The notes below the pieces were generated by a model. That model was not told the DNA's origin. It made no database searches and worked only from the letters and a program-made list of their open reading frames with translations. From the IMG/VR virus record IMGVR_UViG_3300047440_000588, positions 1 to 43,484 of that record: a DNA stretch of 43,484 bases; one strand, given 5' to 3'. The position numbers and the translations under genes are program-made. Positions 6,882 to 39,885 of this stretch are shown here, in pieces (position 1 is the first letter of the stretch; each line of letters starts with the position of its first letter). This stretch comes from a virus.

Positions 6882-6913
6882 TGTCTAGACACGATGTCTA
6901 GACACGATAGAGT
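6882..6913 (+). promoter_or_regulatory. Tandem-palindrome leaderless promoter, copy 1
   Basis: Two TGTCTAGACA palindromes occur at 6882-6891 and 6895-6904. A -35 (TAGACA, 6886-6891) lies in the first palindrome, the second palindrome fills the 16-base spacer, and the -10 is TAGAGT (6908-6913). The ATG follows six bases later, so the transcript should begin at or next to the start codon. The layout fits repressor binding that blocks RNA polymerase. Confidence 0.85.
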
Positions 6914-6919
6914 CTACTC

Positions 6920-7180
6920 ATGAGCAACGCAACCGATAACCGAATCAAGGTTCTTGAGGGTTACTACGCGGAGATCGATGTCGCGATCGCGCTCCAGGAG
7001 CGGGTCCTCGACACCTACGGTGGGATGCTCTCGTACTGTTCCGACGGCGAAGGCTCGGACGGTATCGTCGCGGGACTCGATCGGGCCGAAGGCGAGATCG
7101 CCCAGCTCGTCGCCCAGCTCGTTCGGGACCGCGCCGAGATCGACCGACTGTGGAACGAAGACGTGGAGGGACTCCGATGA
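6920..7180 (+). CDS. Hypothetical protein, leaderless, 86 aa
   Basis: ATG six bases after the -10 box, with no Shine-Dalgarno, so it is probably translated from a leaderless mRNA. The product is acidic and helical with coiled-coil tendency (EGEIAQLVAQLVRDRAEIDRLW). Function unknown. It heads an operon of small genes that continues through ATGA overlaps to at least 7837. Confidence 0.75.
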   Translation: MSNATDNRIKVLEGYYAEIDVAIALQERVLDTYGGMLSYCSDGEGSDGIVAGLDRAEGEIAQLVAQLVRDRAEIDRLWNEDVEGLR

Positions 7181-9283: not shown

Positions 9284-9594
9284 AAGACGATTCCGACTAC
9301 TCGCGAGCGCTCGCGCTCCTGATGACCGACCAGGCCCGGATCGCGCGCGAAGCCGGATATCCGGTTGGTTGTAGTCAGGTATGCTGGTGGGGCTCGATGT
9401 GCCCGCACGGCGGTCGGCTCTTGCTCGGTCCGAACGTATACGGGCGTCCGAACCGTAGCGGCTGGGCGAAGATCACCGAGGCGTGGAAGACCGCGATTCG
9501 TTCGCGCGGCGGCGTGCTCGCGGTCGCCCACACCGAGTTTAGGGATGAAGACATCATCTACGGGTCGACCGACCAAGAGCCAAAAGGTTCGTAA
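9280..9594 (+). CDS. Hypothetical protein, 104 aa
   Basis: GTG start with a 4-base overlap; the stop shares one base with the sigma gene start. The N-terminal half is helical, with a CSQVCWWGSMC cluster in the middle, and the C-terminus is alpha/beta. No family recognised. It may be translationally coupled to the sigma factor. Confidence 0.65.
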   Translation: MKDDSDYSRALALLMTDQARIAREAGYPVGCSQVCWWGSMCPHGGRLLLGPNVYGRPNRSGWAKITEAWKTAIRSRGGVLAVAHTEFRDEDIIYGSTDQEPKGS

Positions 9595-10421
9595 TGGAAA
9601 ACACACGGCGCTACCTGTACGGGCCGACCGCCCCGCTGACGCGCGAGCAGGAGCAGGAACTCTTCAGGAAACTAAACCAGCGGGATAGGAGTGCGCGCGA
9701 CGAGCTCGTTCGACGCCACATTTGGGTCGCGTCCCTGACGGCTCGCCGGTACCGGTTCTTCGGGATCCCGGTCGACGACCTCGTCCAGCACGCGGTCGAG
9801 GGAATCCTGATCGCGCTCGAGTCGTTCGACCCGGCCCGCGGGATCCGGTTCTCGACCTACGCCGGAACCGCCTGCCGCTCGAAGGTACAGGATGCAGTCT
9901 TCCGACTTCACCGGTGCGTCCGGATCGGCCAGAGCGCCCGGGAGCGGGCCGCCCTTCGATGGTGGCGGAAGACTAAGAGCCAGGTCCCGGACGAGATGGC
10001 CCGCGAGGTCGGGATGCCGATCGGGAGGGCTAGGGCGCTCCTGCCGCTGCTCGCGACCCAGTCGATCTCAACCGAGGGCCCGGCACGGCGTGGTCTCGAT
10101 GGCGTGACGTTCGGCGACTGCCTCGAGAACCCGTCCGGGAGCCCCGAGGACGCGCTGGGGGATCAGGAACGGCTCCAGCTAGGCCGGGAGGCCATCGGGC
10201 GCTTCCGCAGGTCGCTCGGGAAGCGGGACCGGGCGATCTTCGACGCTCGTTGCCTCGCGGAGGACCCGCCAACACTCCAGGAGCTCGCCGAACAGATGGG
10301 GTTATCGCGGGAACGAATCCGGCAGATCGAGGTTCAGCTCCGGTGTAGGCTCCGGGAAGCTGTCTTGGAGGCGACGAATTGTCTAGACATCGTGTCTAGA
10401 CACGCTAGTATCGGATCATGA
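9594..10421 (+). CDS. Phage-encoded sigma-70 family RNA polymerase sigma factor, 275 aa
   Basis: The protein shows sigma region 2 (RDELVRRHIWVASLTARRYR, then DDLVQHAVEGILIALESFDP and RGIRFSTYAG) and region 4 (LQELAEQMGLSRERIRQIEV) near residues 232-255. A middle region resembles region 3. There is no region 1.1, so it is like group 3 (RpoH/FliA-size) factors. It would direct host core RNA polymerase to phage promoters. The last residues (CLDIVSRHASIGS) are encoded by the tandem-palindrome promoter of the next gene, whose ATG overlaps the stop. The promoters in this window are natural candidate targets, but that is inference. Confidence 0.93.
   Translation: MENTRRYLYGPTAPLTREQEQELFRKLNQRDRSARDELVRRHIWVASLTARRYRFFGIPVDDLVQHAVEGILIALESFDPARGIRFSTYAGTACRSKVQDAVFRLHRCVRIGQSARERAALRWWRKTKSQVPDEMAREVGMPIGRARALLPLLATQSISTEGPARRGLDGVTFGDCLENPSGSPEDALGDQERLQLGREAIGRFRRSLGKRDRAIFDARCLAEDPPTLQELAEQMGLSRERIRQIEVQLRCRLREAVLEATNCLDIVSRHASIGS
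10380..10411 (+). promoter_or_regulatory. Tandem-palindrome leaderless promoter, copy 2
   Basis: TGTCTAGACA at 10380-10389 and 10393-10402; -35 TAGACA at 10384-10389; 16-base spacer; -10 TAGTAT at 10406-10411; ATG at 10418. The whole module lies inside the 3' end of the sigma gene. Confidence 0.88.
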
Positions 10422-10720
10422 CCGAAGACACTATCGAGAAACGAATCAAGGCGTTCGAGGCGGCTCGCCGGAAGGCTTCGCGCCTCATTCACGCGGTCGC
10501 GGACGGCGCGGACCCGAAGCCGCTCTACAGGGCCGTCGAGGCTGCCTACCGGGCCGGTAACCGACTCGTCGGGCACGAGCCTTCCGAGGTTCGGGACTTC
10601 CGCTGGGCCCAGATGAGTGCGATCCAGTCCCGGATCGGCTGGGCGATTCAACAGGGCGCGGTAGCGCGTCAGCTCGCTCGTAACGCGGAACTTCGCGAGA
10701 TTCTCGGGAGGGCCTCGTGA
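10418..10720 (+). CDS. Hypothetical protein, leaderless, 100 aa
   Basis: ATG six bases after a -10 box and overlapping the sigma stop by 4 bases, so it can be made from its own leaderless mRNA or by coupling. Highly helical and basic (EKRIKAFEAARRKASRLIHAV). No family recognised. It starts an operon of small genes up to 11637. Confidence 0.75.
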   Translation: MTEDTIEKRIKAFEAARRKASRLIHAVADGADPKPLYRAVEAAYRAGNRLVGHEPSEVRDFRWAQMSAIQSRIGWAIQQGAVARQLARNAELREILGRAS

Positions 10721-13363: not shown

Positions 13364-13746
13364 GCCGACAAGCACGTAGGAGACGCATCGCGAAGCAGGT
13401 TGAGTATTGTGGCCTTACGTACACGGGGCCCTTCCGGAACACGTGGCTCGAACCCGGTCCCGACACGATGCCGTATGGGGCCCGGAAGCGCCTCATGATG
13501 TTGATCGTCCAGGCCAAGATTCTCGCGAAGCTTCTGCCGCTGAAGGGGACCCAAACCATTCCCGACTATCGGGCGGCTGCGCGCGAAGCGTCCGCCGAGT
13601 CGATCCGCGAGACGACCCAGACGCTCAACTACCGGTGGCTCATGCGGGATCCGAAGGATTCCCGTCGCCGTCGAGGATCGAAGGGTCGTCCCGAAGCGCT
13701 TCCGCGATTGCCTCTGCCCCGCGTGCCTGTGCCTCGGCCGCGCTGA
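13360..13746 (+). CDS. Basic hypothetical protein, 128 aa
   Basis: ATG overlaps the previous stop by 4 bases. Basic N-terminus (MSRQARRRRIAKQVEY), central helices, then a C-terminal Arg/Pro tail (PLPRVPVPRPR). The last 107 bases lie antisense to the 3' end of the convergent transglycosylase gene. The tail composition suggests the frame there is not under strong selection, or that the true end was lost. Confidence 0.6.
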   Translation: MSRQARRRRIAKQVEYCGLTYTGPFRNTWLEPGPDTMPYGARKRLMMLIVQAKILAKLLPLKGTQTIPDYRAAAREASAESIRETTQTLNYRWLMRDPKDSRRRRGSKGRPEALPRLPLPRVPVPRPR

Positions 13747-14371
13747 CGTCGACGGGCGCATCCGGAACATCGACGCGAGGATTCTGCGCCGCCCGCGACT
13801 GAACTTCTCGGATCGTTCGGCAGACGTCGCCTCGGGTGACGAACCCGGTATCGCCGGAGTCGAACCCGGCGTTCTGCCGGTAGATGGCCTTTGAGCGATC
13901 CCGCTCCGCCGGCGTAACGGTGTCGTGGTTGTTCAGCTTCGACCCATCGCGGGCCGCCACGACCCACGAATCTTCCTGTCCGATCGCGGCCGGGTAGAAG
14001 ACCCCCAGGTACGTGTTCTCGAGCGAGTCCATCCGGCCGCGGTACGAGCCGAGGTATCGCTCGACGAACGGGAGCTGCTCCAGGACCGTCATCTGGGCGA
14101 GCCCGTAGGGGGACGTGCCGAGCAGCTTCGCGGTCGAGGGCATGAACTGGATCAGCCCGACGGCCCCCTGATACGGAACGCCGCGCTTCTGCGCGTCGAT
14201 GACGGCCCACCGGTTCCGCTGACTCGGGCTGAAGGTCCCGGCGGTTTCGAACGAGACGACGCATGCGAGCCAATCCGGCTGTATCGAGAGTTGGTCGGCG
14301 GTCCCGCAGAACCCCCGTAGTTCGTCCGGCGTTAGGTGCTCGATCCCGGGGGCCCCGCAGATAGTTCGCAT
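13640..14371 (-). CDS. Lytic transglycosylase (SLT/goose-lysozyme-like fold), 243 aa
   Basis: Minus strand, ATG at 14371 with GGGGGAGGA seven bases upstream. Residue E42 in VVSFETAGTF is the likely catalytic glutamate, followed at 69-80 by GAVGLIQFMPST, the G-L-x-Q-x-M-P signature of soluble lytic transglycosylases. The enzyme cleaves MurNAc-GlcNAc bonds in peptidoglycan. There is no signal peptide, and the C-terminal 60 residues are Ala/Asp-rich and probably disordered. It could be the endolysin or a virion-associated wall hydrolase. Its isolation on the minus strand favours separate (late) control. Confidence 0.88.
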   Translation of the reverse strand: MRTICGAPGIEHLTPDELRGFCGTADQLSIQPDWLACVVSFETAGTFSPSQRNRWAVIDAQKRGVPYQGAVGLIQFMPSTAKLLGTSPYGLAQMTVLEQLPFVERYLGSYRGRMDSLENTYLGVFYPAAIGQEDSWVVAARDGSKLNNHDTVTPAERDRSKAIYRQNAGFDSGDTGFVTRGDVCRTIREVQSRAAQNPRVDVPDAPVDVSAAEAQARGAEAIAEALRDDPSILDGDGNPSDPA

Positions 14372-14421
14372 GACCGGATCCTCCCCCGGTCCCCCAGGTA
14401 GGTCAACGGAGGCTGTCGAAT

Positions 14422-14453
14422 TGTCTAGACACCGTGTCTAGACACGCTAGTAT
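14422..14453 (+). promoter_or_regulatory. Tandem-palindrome leaderless promoter, copy 3
   Basis: TGTCTAGACA at 14422-14431 and 14435-14444; -35 TAGACA 14426-14431; 16-base spacer; -10 TAGTAT 14448-14453; ATG at 14461 seven bases later. It lies upstream of the transglycosylase on the other strand, so it is also in a divergent position. Confidence 0.9.
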
Positions 14454-14460
14454 GAGGTTC

Positions 14461-14784
14461 ATGAAGACGACGAATTGTTCGTGTGGATGTTCGGCTCCCC
14501 ATATCATCTTTTCTCGCCGAACGGCTGATAACGTGCTCGTCCAGGGCTGGTCGGACGGGTACCTGACGACCACGATTATCGGCCAGGTCGTTGCCCGCTC
14601 GTTGCCCACGAATCTACTTTGGATTCTCGCCGACGAGATCGGACTATATGAGAAGTCGGAACTCCGCTCCCTAGTTAAGGGAGCTCGGAAAGCTCTCGAT
14701 AAGCACGTCCGAGAGCCCCATCGCACGCGCCTATCCGACCTACCGCGGCTCGTTCGTGCCTATGCACCGGCGGTGGTCTCGTGA
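14461..14784 (+). CDS. Hypothetical protein, leaderless, 107 aa
   Basis: ATG at 14461 follows the -10 by seven bases with no ribosome site; an in-frame ATG at 14452 lies in the -10 itself and would not be transcribed. N-terminus CSCGCSAPH may bind metal; the rest is alpha/beta with a basic helix (ELRSLVKGARKALDKHV). It overlaps the clamp-like gene by 4 bases, so the two are probably co-expressed. Confidence 0.75.
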   Translation: MKTTNCSCGCSAPHIIFSRRTADNVLVQGWSDGYLTTTIIGQVVARSLPTNLLWILADEIGLYEKSELRSLVKGARKALDKHVREPHRTRLSDLPRLVRAYAPAVVS

Positions 14785-15467
14785 AAACGACGGTAGACGA
14801 ATCGGGGCGAACGACCTGGCACTTCTCGAAGCAGGAGCTCGTCGCGCTCCTCGCGTTCATGTCGACGGATGTTACGCGCCCCGGGATATCGATCCTGGTG
14901 CTCGACCAGAAGACGGGTCGCTGCTGGGCTACGGACGGGCACCGCGGCGCGATCCTGAAGGGGGAGCGGGTCGACCACGACCGCGCGATCGAGCGCCCCG
15001 TCGAGGGCGTTAAGCGCGAGACCGTCGAGAGCGCGATCAAGCATGCGGCTCCGAAGGACGAGATCCGGATCACGGGGCCCGGTTCCGCGTCCGAGATCGC
15101 GAAGTGCCGCGTCGAGGTGATGGAGCCCATCTCGCCCGGATCGAACTTCTGCCGCGCCTCCTACGAGGCGTTCCTGTCGGACGAAGCGCCGAACCATCTC
15201 GACGCGGTCGTACCGGAACGGCGCGACCCGAAGCACAAGGGGGGCGCGACGGCCTGCTTCAACGGTCCGTACCTGGCGGACCTCGCGCTTGTGACGAAGG
15301 CGTGCCCGCCGACGATCATTAAACGTTCCGACCGGGGGACCGATAAACTCTACCCGGGAGTCGAGATCCAACCGCCCGCGAGCGATCTGGATCCGCTCCT
15401 CGGGACGGTCCGGTGTCCCGCGAATGGGTCCGAATGGTCGATCGTCGTCATGCCGATGCGGATGTAG
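14781..15467 (+). CDS. Short DNA sliding clamp-like protein (DnaN-like), 228 aa
   Basis: GTG start overlapping the previous stop. Residues 50-55 read ATDGHR after a strand (ISILVLDQKTGRCW), the conserved loop of bacterial beta clamps, and the protein ends VVMPMRM, nearly the classic beta-clamp C-terminus VVMPMR[LM]. Bacterial DnaN is about 366 residues in three domains; this protein is about two thirds of that, so it might form a trimer instead of a dimer. It would tether a DNA polymerase or repair factor to DNA. It sits in an operon under a palindromic leaderless promoter. The clamp call rests on two short motifs. Confidence 0.72.
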   Translation: MKTTVDESGRTTWHFSKQELVALLAFMSTDVTRPGISILVLDQKTGRCWATDGHRGAILKGERVDHDRAIERPVEGVKRETVESAIKHAAPKDEIRITGPGSASEIAKCRVEVMEPISPGSNFCRASYEAFLSDEAPNHLDAVVPERRDPKHKGGATACFNGPYLADLALVTKACPPTIIKRSDRGTDKLYPGVEIQPPASDLDPLLGTVRCPANGSEWSIVVMPMRM

Positions 15468-15791: not shown

Positions 15792-15823
15792 TGTCTAGAC
15801 ACGGTGTCTAGACACGCTAGTGT
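15792..15823 (+). promoter_or_regulatory. Tandem-palindrome leaderless promoter, copy 4
   Basis: TGTCTAGACA at 15792-15801 and 15805-15814; -35 TAGACA 15796-15801; 16-base spacer; -10 TAGTGT 15818-15823; ATG at 15830. Confidence 0.88.
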
Positions 15824-15829
15824 TGGATC

Positions 15830-16063
15830 ATGAAGACGATGACGACGGCAGCCAAAACGACGGTTCAGAATCCCAACCTCTACGTGGTCCGCTCCTGTAA
15901 CTTCTCGTGGCACGAGCCGATCGAAACCGCTTCCTACGAGGAGGCCCTGACGGCTGCTCGCGGTCGCGGGTTCGAGGCTCGGATCGACCGCGCTGGGACG
16001 CTCGTCGCGACCTGGAGCCCGCTCTACGGGACCCACACGTACTCGCGCGAGCTCGCCCGATGA
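15830..16063 (+). CDS. Hypothetical protein, leaderless, 77 aa
   Basis: ATG six bases after the -10. A compact alpha/beta sequence (LYVVRSCNFSWHEPIE, a helix EEALTAARGRG, then strands ending TYSREL). Overlaps the next gene by 4 bases. No family recognised. Confidence 0.72.
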   Translation: MKTMTTAAKTTVQNPNLYVVRSCNFSWHEPIETASYEEALTAARGRGFEARIDRAGTLVATWSPLYGTHTYSRELAR

Positions 16064-17140: not shown

Positions 17141-17612
17141 AGACGAATCCTACCGGGTTATCGGGACGCACCACCGAGAGGGAAGCCGGAACGTGACGCT
17201 GACCCGACAGGGTGGGTTCGTTGACCTCGCGGTCTCACAGCTCCGCCGGATCGGCTACCGCCGGATCCTCGTGAGGCCAGCGGGCGCAATGTCGTCCTTT
17301 CCCCCTCCCGCGATGCCGCAAGAAAGCGTTAAAGGTTGTCTAGACAGCGCCGTTCCTAAGGGGCATGGAACGAACGCAGGAGGGACGGAAGATGGAAACG
17401 GAGTTGATCGCGGGGTTGCAGGAGGAGTGGAAGCTCGCGATGCGGGCGGGGCGAGCCGAGGACGCGGGCCGGATCGCGGCTCGGATCTGGGAGATCCGAA
17501 GATCGTCGGCGAAAGTCCGGGCGGCTCGTACGACGACCCGCCTAGCTCTCGCGTCCGTCCTTCGTTAGTACCCCGCGCCCTCTGGTACTGGAGGGGTGTA
17601 CGGGAGGGTTGA
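17133..17612 (+). CDS. Hypothetical protein with suspicious C-terminal extension, 159 aa
   Basis: Starts with ATG at 17133, eight bases before the upstream stop. The first 60 or so residues look like a normal alpha/beta protein (RVIGTHHREGSRNVTLTRQG). From about 17330 the frame continues through a TGTCTAGACA palindrome and then through the whole of another gene in a different frame, reading as Gly/Asp/Arg-rich low-complexity sequence. The original stop may have been lost when regulatory DNA was inserted. The N-terminal part is more credible than the end. Confidence 0.45.
   Translation: MCEDESYRVIGTHHREGSRNVTLTRQGGFVDLAVSQLRRIGYRRILVRPAGAMSSFPPPAMPQESVKGCLDSAVPKGHGTNAGGTEDGNGVDRGVAGGVEARDAGGASRGRGPDRGSDLGDPKIVGESPGGSYDDPPSSRVRPSLVPRALWYWRGVREG
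17337..17346. promoter_or_regulatory. Single TGTCTAGACA palindrome (lone operator)
   Basis: One exact 10-bp palindrome, the same as the promoter half-sites, but without a partner and without a -10 box 16 bases downstream. It lies just before two small genes, one of which encodes a ribbon-helix-helix protein, so it could be an autoregulatory site. Confidence 0.6.
17392..17568 (+). CDS. Small helical protein, 58 aa
   Basis: ATG at 17392 is preceded by AGGAGGG with a seven-base spacer, better than the in-frame ATG at 17365. Helical and Arg/Ala-rich (EEWKLAMRAGRAEDAGRIAA). It overlaps the dubious end of the previous frame; the good ribosome site supports this one. Function unknown. Confidence 0.6.
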   Translation: METELIAGLQEEWKLAMRAGRAEDAGRIAARIWEIRRSSAKVRAARTTTRLALASVLR

Positions 17613-17631
17613 AAGCCCGTATAGACATCCC

Positions 17632-17817
17632 ATGAGAACCAAAAAACAGAAGTCCGTTCCGCCGGACCCGACTCCGCCGACTCCCGAGAGCTCGAAGATG
17701 AGAGGGTTCCGGTTCCGGCATTCCGAGTATGAGACCTGGCGGGTCCGGGCCCTTCAGGAAGGCATCGGGATCACGGATCTGATCCGGAAGGCGATGTCGT
17801 CCTACCTTTCTTCTTAA
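17632..17817 (+). CDS. Ribbon-helix-helix (Arc/MetJ/CopG-type) DNA-binding protein, 61 aa
   Basis: After a disordered basic/proline N-terminus (residues 1-23), residues 24-59 follow the RHH pattern: strand RGFRFRH, helix A SEYETWRVRALQE, turn GIG, helix B ITDLIRKAMSSYL. RHH dimers insert the strand into the major groove of short palindromes and bind tandem sites cooperatively. This is the only clear candidate regulator near the TGTCTAGACA sites, with one copy upstream (17337) and a pair downstream (17865). A TATAGA six bases before ATG may be a leaderless -10. Binding to these sites is inference. Confidence 0.75.
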   Translation: MRTKKQKSVPPDPTPPTPESSKMRGFRFRHSEYETWRVRALQEGIGITDLIRKAMSSYLSS

Positions 17818-17864: not shown

Positions 17865-17896
17865 TGTCTAGACAACGTCGTCTAGACAAGTATGAT
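17865..17896 (+). promoter_or_regulatory. Tandem-palindrome leaderless promoter, copy 5 (variant)
   Basis: TGTCTAGACA at 17865-17874 and CGTCTAGACA at 17879-17888, one base further apart than in the other copies. The -35 TAGACA (17869-17874) and -10 TATGAT (17891-17896) still have a 16-base spacer. ATG at 17904 follows seven bases later. Confidence 0.85.
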
Positions 17897-17903
17897 GAGA
17901 GAC

Positions 17904-18491
17904 ATGAAGAAGATGATTCTGGTGGCGACGATGATGCTGGCGAACGCGTGCGCCTACGGGGCCGGCCCGGTCCCGACGGTCGACCCGGCGCCCCAGGCCG
18001 GGCAGGTAGTCGCGAGGGCCGCGGACGTCATCGTGGAGGCGGACGAGACCTTTTTTCAACCGGTCCAGGAAGCCGCGACCGAGTGGTCGGCCGCGACCGG
18101 GATGTCGTTCCTCGTCGTCTCGGTTCCGGCGGGGTCGGAGTGGCACGACGGGACCTGGCGGGTCGAGTCGGAAGCGGTAGCGCCCCACTTGGCCGGCACG
18201 GGCTGGCGAGCCGAGAACCCGGAGCCCCTGACGGCCCACATCGGGATCGACCCCGCGATCGTGGCGGGGTTCGGGTTCACGGAGGACGAGCTCCGCCGGG
18301 CGATGCTTCACGAGTTCGGCCACGCGCTCGGGCTCCGGTTCGCCGGTGGCGACCTTCACTACGAGGGCCCGCTCCCGAGCGTGATGTATAGCGGGCTCCG
18401 GGACGGCCCGAACTGCTCGCTTCACCTCGGGACCCCCGAGCTCGACGCGTGGGACGTAGCGTCACCGGCCTTCCCCCGAACGGCTCGCTAA
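17904..18491 (+). CDS. Exported matrixin-like zinc metalloprotease, 195 aa
   Basis: I chose ATG at 17904 by promoter geometry and because it gives a clean signal sequence: MKKMILVATMMLANACAYG, with a possible lipobox-like ANAC. In-frame ATGs at 17892 and 17895 overlap the -10. HEFGHALG at residues 136-143 supplies two zinc histidines and the catalytic glutamate; VMYSG around residue 161 resembles the metzincin Met-turn. The usual third ligand (HExxHxxGxxH) is Phe here, so another residue, perhaps H in DLHY, must serve or activity is altered. An exported protease under a phage promoter could act on envelope or extracellular proteins. Confidence 0.8.
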   Translation: MKKMILVATMMLANACAYGAGPVPTVDPAPQAGQVVARAADVIVEADETFFQPVQEAATEWSAATGMSFLVVSVPAGSEWHDGTWRVESEAVAPHLAGTGWRAENPEPLTAHIGIDPAIVAGFGFTEDELRRAMLHEFGHALGLRFAGGDLHYEGPLPSVMYSGLRDGPNCSLHLGTPELDAWDVASPAFPRTAR

Positions 18492-20477: not shown

Positions 20478-20694
20478 AGGCAGCGCTCCGAAGTCCCGGG
20501 GGCCGAAGGAGCACGAGTGCGCGGTCCCGCCGGATCGCCCTATTCCGTGGGAGGCGACCCGGACGTCGTGCGGCCAACCCGTCGAAGGGTCGGCTCCGTT
20601 CCGCGTGATGGCCCAGACGTGGTTCGAGGCCCGTAAGGCTGCGCTCATTCACTTCGGGGTCGGGCAGGCCGAGATTACGGTCCGGCAGGTCTGA
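20455..20694 (+). CDS. Hypothetical protein, 79 aa
   Basis: GTG at 20455, preceded by AAAGGGAG; overlaps the previous gene by 23 bases. Basic N-terminus, then an ordered region with two cysteines (HECAVPP, TSCGQ) and a helix (FEARKAALIHFGV). The stop TGA shares its A with the palindrome that follows. Function unknown. Confidence 0.65.
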   Translation: MAQRRHARGSAPKSRGPKEHECAVPPDRPIPWEATRTSCGQPVEGSAPFRVMAQTWFEARKAALIHFGVGQAEITVRQV

Positions 20695-20713
20695 CCGCGC
20701 CGCGCGGCGCGGT
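20694..20713. repeat. 20-bp perfect palindrome, copy 4 (overlaps stop codon)
   Basis: Begins at the last base of the upstream TGA and is followed by GGTTGAAC, exactly as at copy 5. A second GC hairpin (CCCCCC/GGGGGG) follows at about 20723-20734. The position suggests a transcript-end or mRNA-processing role. Confidence 0.95.
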
Positions 20714-20750
20714 GGTTGAACGGCCCCCCGGGGGGTGCGAGGCTCCCGAG

Positions 20751-21365: not shown

Positions 21366-21645
21366 CGACGGGGGCGATCGCTTTTTCTTTCCCGACCGAT
21401 ATCGGAGTGATTACGATCTGATCATCAAGCGGGAGCTCGCGCAGAAGGGCCCAGGATCGCCACTCGATGACGTCCTGGTAGCAGAGGTCGCAGAGCTCCG
21501 GCATATCGTCGCCGCAGCCCTGGCAGAAGCCGCGCCAGCGCTCGCACCCCCCGCAGAGGAATTCGAGGCATCCGCGGCAGTCCCCCTTGTGGACTTCGGG
21601 ATGAAGGGGTAACTGCGCGGAACGGTGAAGCTCTTGCGTTGCCAT
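21304..21645 (-). CDS. Cysteine-rich zinc protein, 113 aa
   Basis: Minus strand. Residues about 23-55 contain nine cysteines (CRGC, CGGC, CQGC, CDLC pairs), enough for two zinc sites. The upstream ribosome site is weak (GGGG). It fills an interval with no plus-strand gene and overlaps the ParB-like gene by 62 bases at the 3' ends. The C-terminal tail (RPGVPAVGPGRREP) is antisense to that gene and may be unconstrained. Confidence 0.6.
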   Translation of the reverse strand: MATQELHRSAQLPLHPEVHKGDCRGCLEFLCGGCERWRGFCQGCGDDMPELCDLCYQDVIEWRSWALLRELPLDDQIVITPISVGKEKAIAPVVIRVPPRPGVPAVGPGRREP

Positions 21646-21679
21646 TGACCCCGGATGGCGCCCGCGGCATGGTCGGGCG

Positions 21680-23379: not shown

Positions 23380-23763
23380 ATGGAGCAGAAGGACATCTCG
23401 TTCCCGCGCGGCGACACGTACGCGTTCGAGGTCGTCGCGAAGCGGCCGGATCCCGCGACCGGGTTCCTACAGGTAATCGACCTGACGGCCGGCAAGGCGT
23501 GGTTCACGGCCAAGCGGACCGTATCGGACCAGGACGCATCCGCGACGATCGCGCTCTCGACCACGACCTCGGGAGTCGCGATCGTCGATGCTCTCGGGGG
23601 CCGGGTTCGGGTCACGATCCCGCCGGCCCCGACGCTCGCGTTGCCCGATAACCCCGTGAACCTCCGGTACGACGTCCAGGTGATGGACTCGACCGGGAAC
23701 GTCACGACCGTCCAGACCGGGATCTGTTCGGTCGTACCGGACGTCACGCGCGCTACCTCCTGA
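23380..23763 (+). CDS. Baseplate/fibre-associated protein (BppU-N-like), 127 aa
   Basis: ATG nine bases after the previous stop. ISFPRGDTYAFEVVAK, then VIDLTAGKAWFTAK, and near the end NLRYDVQVMDSTGNVTTVQ follow the pattern 'RGDT ... DLTG ... WFTAK ... YDVQ ... TV..G' of a widespread small beta-sandwich phage protein found next to adhesin genes (BppU N-terminal-like). It probably links or supports the receptor-binding apparatus. The stop TGA overlaps palindrome copy 5. Confidence 0.72.
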   Translation: MEQKDISFPRGDTYAFEVVAKRPDPATGFLQVIDLTAGKAWFTAKRTVSDQDASATIALSTTTSGVAIVDALGGRVRVTIPPAPTLALPDNPVNLRYDVQVMDSTGNVTTVQTGICSVVPDVTRATS

Positions 23764-23782
23764 CCGCGCCGCGCGGCGCGGT
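23763..23782. repeat. 20-bp perfect palindrome, copy 5 (overlaps stop codon)
   Basis: Starts at the last base of the TGA and is followed by GGTTGAAC as in copy 4, so the two share about 30 bases. It lies between the small beta-sandwich gene and the adhesin group. Confidence 0.95.
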
Positions 23783-23818
23783 GGTTGAACGCCCGCGGGG
23801 CGGCTGCCACGGTAGGGG

Positions 23819-36672: not shown

Positions 36673-36846
36673 GGGGGCGGCTTGCGCGGGCTCGGGACGA
36701 ATGCCACGGTTCCGGTGTCCAGACGCGAACAGGCAGACCCAGTCCCCCAATACGCGCACGACGGCGGTTAACGGTCGGTCCCGGGAGGAGTGGCAGAGGC
36801 CCAGTAGCGAAGGCTACCAGAACCCCCACCCGAAAGATCCATCCCA
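36673..36846 (+). other. Untranslated leader before major capsid gene
   Basis: About 170 bases without a convincing gene. It contains a perfect GTAGC-GAAG-GCTAC hairpin at 36804-36817 and an isolated GGGAGGAG at about 36783-36790 not placed for the capsid ATG. No clear -35/-10 pair is visible, although the capsid gene should be strongly expressed. Confidence 0.4.
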
Positions 36847-39640: not shown

Positions 39641-39885
39641 CTGGTGAGCCAGCGCTGGACGGCACCGCCGGCGCGCGCCGCGCCCGAGATAGCCGCGAAC
39701 AAGACCATCACGAGCACGATCCCGAACCAGACCGACGCCTGAAGGACCAGGAGCGGTCGGTCCCACCGCCCGTGCTCCACGAGGTCAGCATCCCAGTGTT
39801 GGTAGAACCCAAACGCGGCCGCGACGTAAACGATTAGCGTAACCATCGTTGAACCGATGGCGCGGGGCCGCCAAGCTTCCGGCAT
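39637..39885 (-). CDS. Two-pass membrane protein on the opposite strand, 82 aa
   Basis: Minus strand. Two hydrophobic segments: about 14-28 (MVTLIVYVAAAFGFY) and about 46-66 (LLVLQASVWFGIVLVMVLFA). Start ATG at 39885 overlaps the start of the plus-strand gene at 39884 (CATG). An internal ATG at 39846 would also begin at the first segment. A membrane protein gene inverted inside the neck operon is unusual. It might be a moron or a holin-like protein. Confidence 0.6.
   Translation of the reverse strand: MPEAWRPRAIGSTMVTLIVYVAAAFGFYQHWDADLVEHGRWDRPLLVLQASVWFGIVLVMVLFAAISGAARAGGAVQRWLTS

Follow-up and report, generated by a model that had tools for sequence, protein, structure and literature searches.

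The tryptophans and the glutamine of region 2.4 of sigma-70 proteins handle the -12 and -11 positions of promoters. Phages can encode sigma factors of their own and use them in cascades, as with gp28 of SPO1 and gp55 of T4. Among repressors, the ribbon-helix-helix (RHH) family acts at tandem palindromic boxes that overlap a promoter, an arrangement that recurs at the phage promoters described below. Operators and stoperators of L5-like mycobacteriophages are 13-bp asymmetric sites, and the corresponding repressor is a two-domain HTH monomer (PMC9283540). BguR, a GntR repressor of Streptococcus pneumoniae, uses the operator AAAAATGTCTAGACAAATTT, which is a single palindrome overlapping the -35 element (PMC3585215). 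Sigma factors encoded by phages of Bacillota are the subject of a further report (PMC9429907).

The window analysed here, a virus record of 43,484 bases, contains a sigma-70-family gene whose last codons are also a promoter, one of five that are each combined with a pair of short palindromes (Table 1). The best explanation for these features is a combination of gene packing and leaderless, repressor-controlled promoters, with an Arc-like protein as the candidate repressor and a sigma factor that would belong to the regulon and act elsewhere. We assign this reading a probability of roughly 0.6. If it is right, it would provide, for an uncultivated family of ~90- to 100-kb phages, a wiring diagram composed of an operator, a candidate repressor, a sigma factor and two promoter sets that are probably leaderless, and it would clearly illustrate how a promoter can dictate the tail of a protein. 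Should the packing part alone hold, the locus is an example of ordinary genome compaction.

As in the SPO1 and T4 cascades and in Bacillota phages (PMC9429907), a sigma-70-family protein is encoded among non-structural genes, and a separate late promoter set is a possible target for it. The present phage differs from the known cascades in that its sigma gene contains a promoter of the repressor-type set and not of the late set, and in that a second sigma-like protein is encoded.

Table 1. Coordinates of the sigma gene, the two promoter sets and neighbouring features in the window
Feature	Position	Strand	Details
Sigma-70-family gene	9594..10421	+	275 aa; Pfam, PHROGs and PDB sequence matches
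Sigma region 2	9738..9908	+	residues 49-105; PF04542; region 2.4 reads FSTYAGTACRSKVQDAVFRLHRCVRI
Sigma region 4	10212..10358	+	residues 207-255; PF04545; SRERIRQIE recognition helix
Promoter-encoded sigma end	10380..10421	+	last 14 codons including stop, CLDIVSRHASIGS plus stop; same peptide from other copies
Gene behind copy 2	10418..10720	+	100 aa; ATG overlaps sigma stop
Copy 1	6882..6913	+	palindromes 6882-6904; -10 TAGAGT 6908-6913; ATG at 6920
Copy 2, palindromes	10380..10402	+	TGTCTAGACA-TCG-TGTCTAGACA
Copy 2, promoter	10384..10411	+	-35 TAGACA 10384-10389, N16, -10 TAGTAT 10406-10411; ATG 6 nt on
Copy 3	14422..14453	+	palindromes 14422-14444; -10 TAGTAT; ATG at 14461
Copy 4	15792..15823	+	palindromes 15792-15814; -10 TAGTGT; ATG at 15830
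Copy 5	17865..17896	+	palindromes 14 bp apart, second is CGTCTAGACA; -10 TATGAT; ATG at 17904
Single perfect palindrome TGTCTAGACA	17337..17346	+	18 nt before ATG 17365
Arc-like ribbon-helix-helix protein, candidate repressor	17632..17817	+	61 aa; phrog_6506 Arc-like repressor, 2.6e-5
Second set, TTGACC-N17-GAGGAT	14378..14406	-	6 nt before transglycosylase/baseplate-hub-like gene 13640-14371 (-)
Second set, TTGAAC-N17-GAGGCT	20716..20744	+	6 nt before ATG 20751
Second set, TTGACC-N17-CATGGT	21645..21673	+	6 nt before ATG 21680
Second set, TTGAAC-N17-CACGGT	23785..23813	+	5 nt before ATG 23819
Second set, TTGCGC-N17-CACGGT	36682..36710	+	upstream of major head protein gene
Second set, TTGAAC-N17-CAAGCT	39849..39877	+	6 nt before ATG 39884

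Judged by its domains, the sigma reading frame is a real gene and a member of the sigma-70 family. Pfam matches to Sigma70_r2 (5e-9) and Sigma70_r4 (1e-8) are both above the cut-off, and the PHROGs match is to phrog_351, RNA polymerase sigma factor (3e-29). The RpoS, RpoH and SigA chains in the PDB align with most of the protein, and the alignment stops at about residue 255-259. Region 4.2 is canonical in the alignment, with the recognition helix kept. In region 2.4, TACRSKVQD stands opposite WWIRQTIER of RpoS, so the usual WW and RQ positions, whose residues normally read T at -12, are missing from it in the RpoS alignment. A 90% identical sigma protein is encoded by the relatives G001 and G002. 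The AlphaFold model of the window's sigma is poor (pLDDT 52, from two sequences only), and disorder of the tail therefore cannot be claimed.

A first-pass annotation of this DNA had located a promoter within the final 14 or so sigma codons, had noted that the sigma stop overlaps the next ATG, and had proposed that the promoter shaped the C-terminal tail. These points hold. Counted from its first palindrome, the promoter block spans the last 14 sigma codons exactly, with the stop codon as one of them; at its end, ATGA (10418-10421) contains both the next start codon and the TGA that ends the sigma frame. The tail NCLDIVSRHASIGS is the in-frame translation of this block. When the sigma protein was used in tblastn, the intergenic promoter copies yielded near-identical peptides in frame, SNCLDTVSRHASM from copy 3 and NCLDTVSRHASVGS from copy 4, which supports a promoter-shaped tail. 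In the strain whose sigma is 90% identical, both copy-2 palindromes and the -10 element are unchanged; the two differences between the strains in these 42 bp (14 codons), one in the spacer and one just after the -10 element, are too few for a test of selection.

The C-terminal length was compared with that of other sigma factors. The window's sigma has 29 residues after RIRQIE versus 14-26 in six other sigma factors of the phage collection, and is thus slightly long, if not strikingly so. Without the promoter-encoded part ~15 residues would follow, which is within the normal range. The overlap can be understood as gene packing, in which copy 2 lies directly behind region 4, the sigma frame runs on through the promoter, and the ATGA end of the promoter block supplies the stop codon. 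A sigma gene that ends in a promoter is, on this account, neat but ordinary packing. The 100-aa protein encoded behind copy 2 had no match in Pfam and PHROG searches.

Exact matches to TAGACA-N16-TAnnnT begin at positions 6886, 10384, 14426, 15796 and 17869 of the window, all on the plus strand; with one mismatch allowed there are seven matches, versus 1.1 expected in shuffled sequences. Every copy is combined with two TGTCTAGACA palindromes; their spacing is 13 bp except in copy 5, where it is 14 bp and the second palindrome carries one change. The exact palindrome occurs 10 times in the window versus not at all in 100 third-order Markov sequences. All five -10 elements keep T at -12, and in five of five copies TAnnnT ends 6-7 nt before an ATG. 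Thus, a transcript initiated at the usual distance would have the start codon at its 5' end, and the copies probably give leaderless mRNAs, the first base of which would be the A of the next ATG. The tandem palindromes overlap the -35 element and fill the spacer, so that dimers bound at both would keep polymerase out; they look like a putative repressor operator. Because the sigma gene is the last in the same-strand run of genes behind copy 1, it is itself a likely member of the regulon.

Two other genes near these promoters have features that were recognized separately. The product of the gene behind copy 5 (17904-18491) has a signal-peptide-like start, the sequence HEFGHALG and a weak match to matrixin-like metallopeptidases. 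The protein encoded at 14781-15467 has, by eye, the ATDGHR of DNA polymerase sliding clamps, although its PHROGs match is a weak one to RusA-like proteins.

The ends of the IMG/VR relative G001 (96,054 bp) overlap by 127 bases, which makes it probable that the assembly is complete and circular. Over 26 kb its sequence is the same as that of the window, and most of the remainder is 78-98% identical. The paired promoter occurs six times in G001, in one orientation, corresponding to the five copies of the window and one ~10 kb upstream of it. The additional copy precedes a gene that reads as helicase-like, and is followed by a short leader with a Shine-Dalgarno-like sequence. All six copies are in the non-structural part of the genome, upstream of non-structural genes. 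The element is carried by relatives so close (78-100% identical DNA) that they provide little evolutionary leverage. In more distant relatives, found through the exonuclease gene, no sigma gene is present within the fetched flanks. The pattern TGTCTAGACA-N3-TGTCTAGACA was also considered as a widespread operator and was rejected; it has five matches in 84,980 species genomes, with no convincing shared context. Three of these are streptococcal, lie downstream of the same gene beside a T run and are terminator-like, whereas one of the others is part of a tandem repeat and one is near a TetR-like gene.

The leading candidate for a repressor that binds the palindromes is the Arc-like protein of the phage, which we consider to be the best candidate ligand of the tandem operator. 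Its gene sits between the single palindrome and copy 5, just upstream of the latter, and is immediately preceded by a degenerate site, CGTATAGACA (17618-17627). A single-sequence AlphaFold model of the protein shows strand-helix-helix (mean pLDDT 69, and 86-89 over residues 31-50); many of the Foldseek matches to this model are RHH proteins (among them NikA, CopG, Arc and AvtR), all with weak E values, and the Pfam match to the RHH-type NikA-like family reaches 13.4 bits, under the cut-off of 27. The candidate thus resembles the Arc, CopG and MetJ repressors in being a small strand-helix-helix protein; it differs from them in that its sequence match is weak and that its binding to boxes 13-14 bp apart is putative. 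The 13-bp spacing of the two palindromes counts against it, as Arc-like proteins are not known to accommodate this distance. In having several copies of one repressor-type site across the genome, the phage is similar to the L5-like system (PMC9283540). However, a comparison with the asymmetric 13-bp sites of that system finds 10-bp palindromes in the window, which stand in tandem pairs at promoters, and the candidate repressor is Arc-like.

A second promoter set, TTGnnC-N17-[C/G]AnGnT, precedes the late genes, and several of its sites lie 5-6 nt before an ATG (Table 1). With a spacer of 17, 10 of the 14 sites fall in intergenic DNA, which makes up 12% of the genome, versus 0-2 at other spacers; the pattern was aligned by eye after some sites had been seen, and this control compares spacers and is not blind. 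When the DNA upstream of late genes was searched by EM without bias, no clean motif emerged. A bare count of the late pattern in 20 relatives, which is a weak test, gave no clear excess over a reversed control.

The binding of the palindromes by a host regulator of the GntR/HutC type (DasR/NagR-like), which would tie early phage genes to host sugar metabolism, is an alternative to the Arc-like repressor. The core GTCTAGAC of the phage site is the centre of the NagR dre sites GTGGTCTAGACCAC (PMC4333415) as well as of the BguR operator, which likewise overlaps a -35 element (PMC3585215). The host would have to supply this regulator, because a search for PF00392 in G001 and G002 found no GntR protein above the cut-off, the sole weak match being in the sigma gene. 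However, NagR makes its sequence-specific contacts at positions 4-7 from the centre (PMC4333415), where the outer bases of the phage site partly differ, and a tandem pair stands in the phage in place of a single site, so closely spaced at 13 bp that two HutC-type dimers would be crowded. In addition, the phage itself encodes an Arc-like protein beside copy 5. We regard the host regulator as unlikely. Less likely still is that the window's sigma recognizes TAGACA-N16-TAnnnT and drives, or competes at, the five promoters with positive feedback on its own regulon. The first-pass annotation had suggested such a role, for which the present data offer no support. The canonical region 4.2 helix could read a TTGACA-like -35 element, and the sigma gene belongs to the same regulon. 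Several points speak against this reading. The usual WW and RQ positions are missing from region 2.4, whereas the TAGACA promoters retain T at -12; transcription from copy 1 would be required before any sigma factor could be made from the gene behind it; the tandem palindromes suggest a repressor; and there is a second promoter set that the sigma could use. The promoter set and the regulon can be explained without the sigma factor, whose gene is likely to be part of the regulon and whose reading of these promoters is hypothetical. A better account than the functional link that had been proposed would be a repressor-controlled regulon with the sigma gene among its members.

In the favoured reading, with packing and repression, the sigma factor would be expressed from copy 1 and would probably act elsewhere, perhaps at the late promoters. 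The late set is a more plausible target than the TAGACA set, and its -12 base would fit the altered region 2.4. It could also be read by the second sigma-like protein or simply by the host sigma, with the window's sigma serving something else. The second protein is conserved and has a region-2 match only (93942-94628 in rotated G001 coordinates), and homologues of it are present in several relatives in which the window's sigma was not found. Sites like TTGnnn-N17-CAnnnT occur also in G007, G008, G010 and G014, and just before start codons in G007, G010 and G014. The window's sigma was not found in G010 and G014 although these sites are present there; the search of the relatives with the sigma protein only had no positive control, whereas the Pfam searches included G001 and found its sigma. 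G007 and G008, the two closest of these relatives, are fragments that do not cover the sigma region. Moreover, the relative G012 has a repeated promoter set of its own, nine copies of TTGACAGAAAC, with the -10 elements CATAAT, TATCAT, TACTAT, CATATT or GATATT, so that a single promoter family can have C, T or G as its -12 base. Against this stands the sharp spacer-17 peak of TTGnnC/nAnGnT, which is seen only in G001, the genome that carries the window's sigma (11 intergenic sites versus at most three elsewhere at this spacer). A different reader for the late set is possible, if doubtful. The full two-tier leaderless circuit, in which repressor-controlled early promoters, one of them inside the last sigma codons, would lead to a sigma factor with changed -12 recognition and from there to leaderless late promoters, is a tentative proposal that we rate as a little more doubtful.

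A 20-bp perfect palindrome, ACCGCGCCGCGCGGCGCGGT, is dispersed seven times in the window, at positions 2253, 5279, 12676, 20694, 23763, 30628 and 33870; there are 14 exact and two near copies in G001. Of nine relatives tested, eight each contain a different repeated palindrome, such as GAAACCCGGGTTTC (16-18 times) or GCGCATCGATGCGC (5-13 times), and many of the copies are in intergenic gaps immediately after the end of a gene. These elements look like putative phage-specific binding sites, comparable to stoperators or parS. In two late promoters, ACCGCGCCGCGCGGCGCGGT ends 2 bp before the TTGAAC of the -35 element (20694-20721 and 23763-23790), and it may therefore regulate the late set. A conserved protein of 358 residues in G001, ParB/KorB-like by eye, is encoded next to the second sigma-like gene (94654-95730 in the rotated coordinates), and is a possible ligand of the dispersed palindrome.
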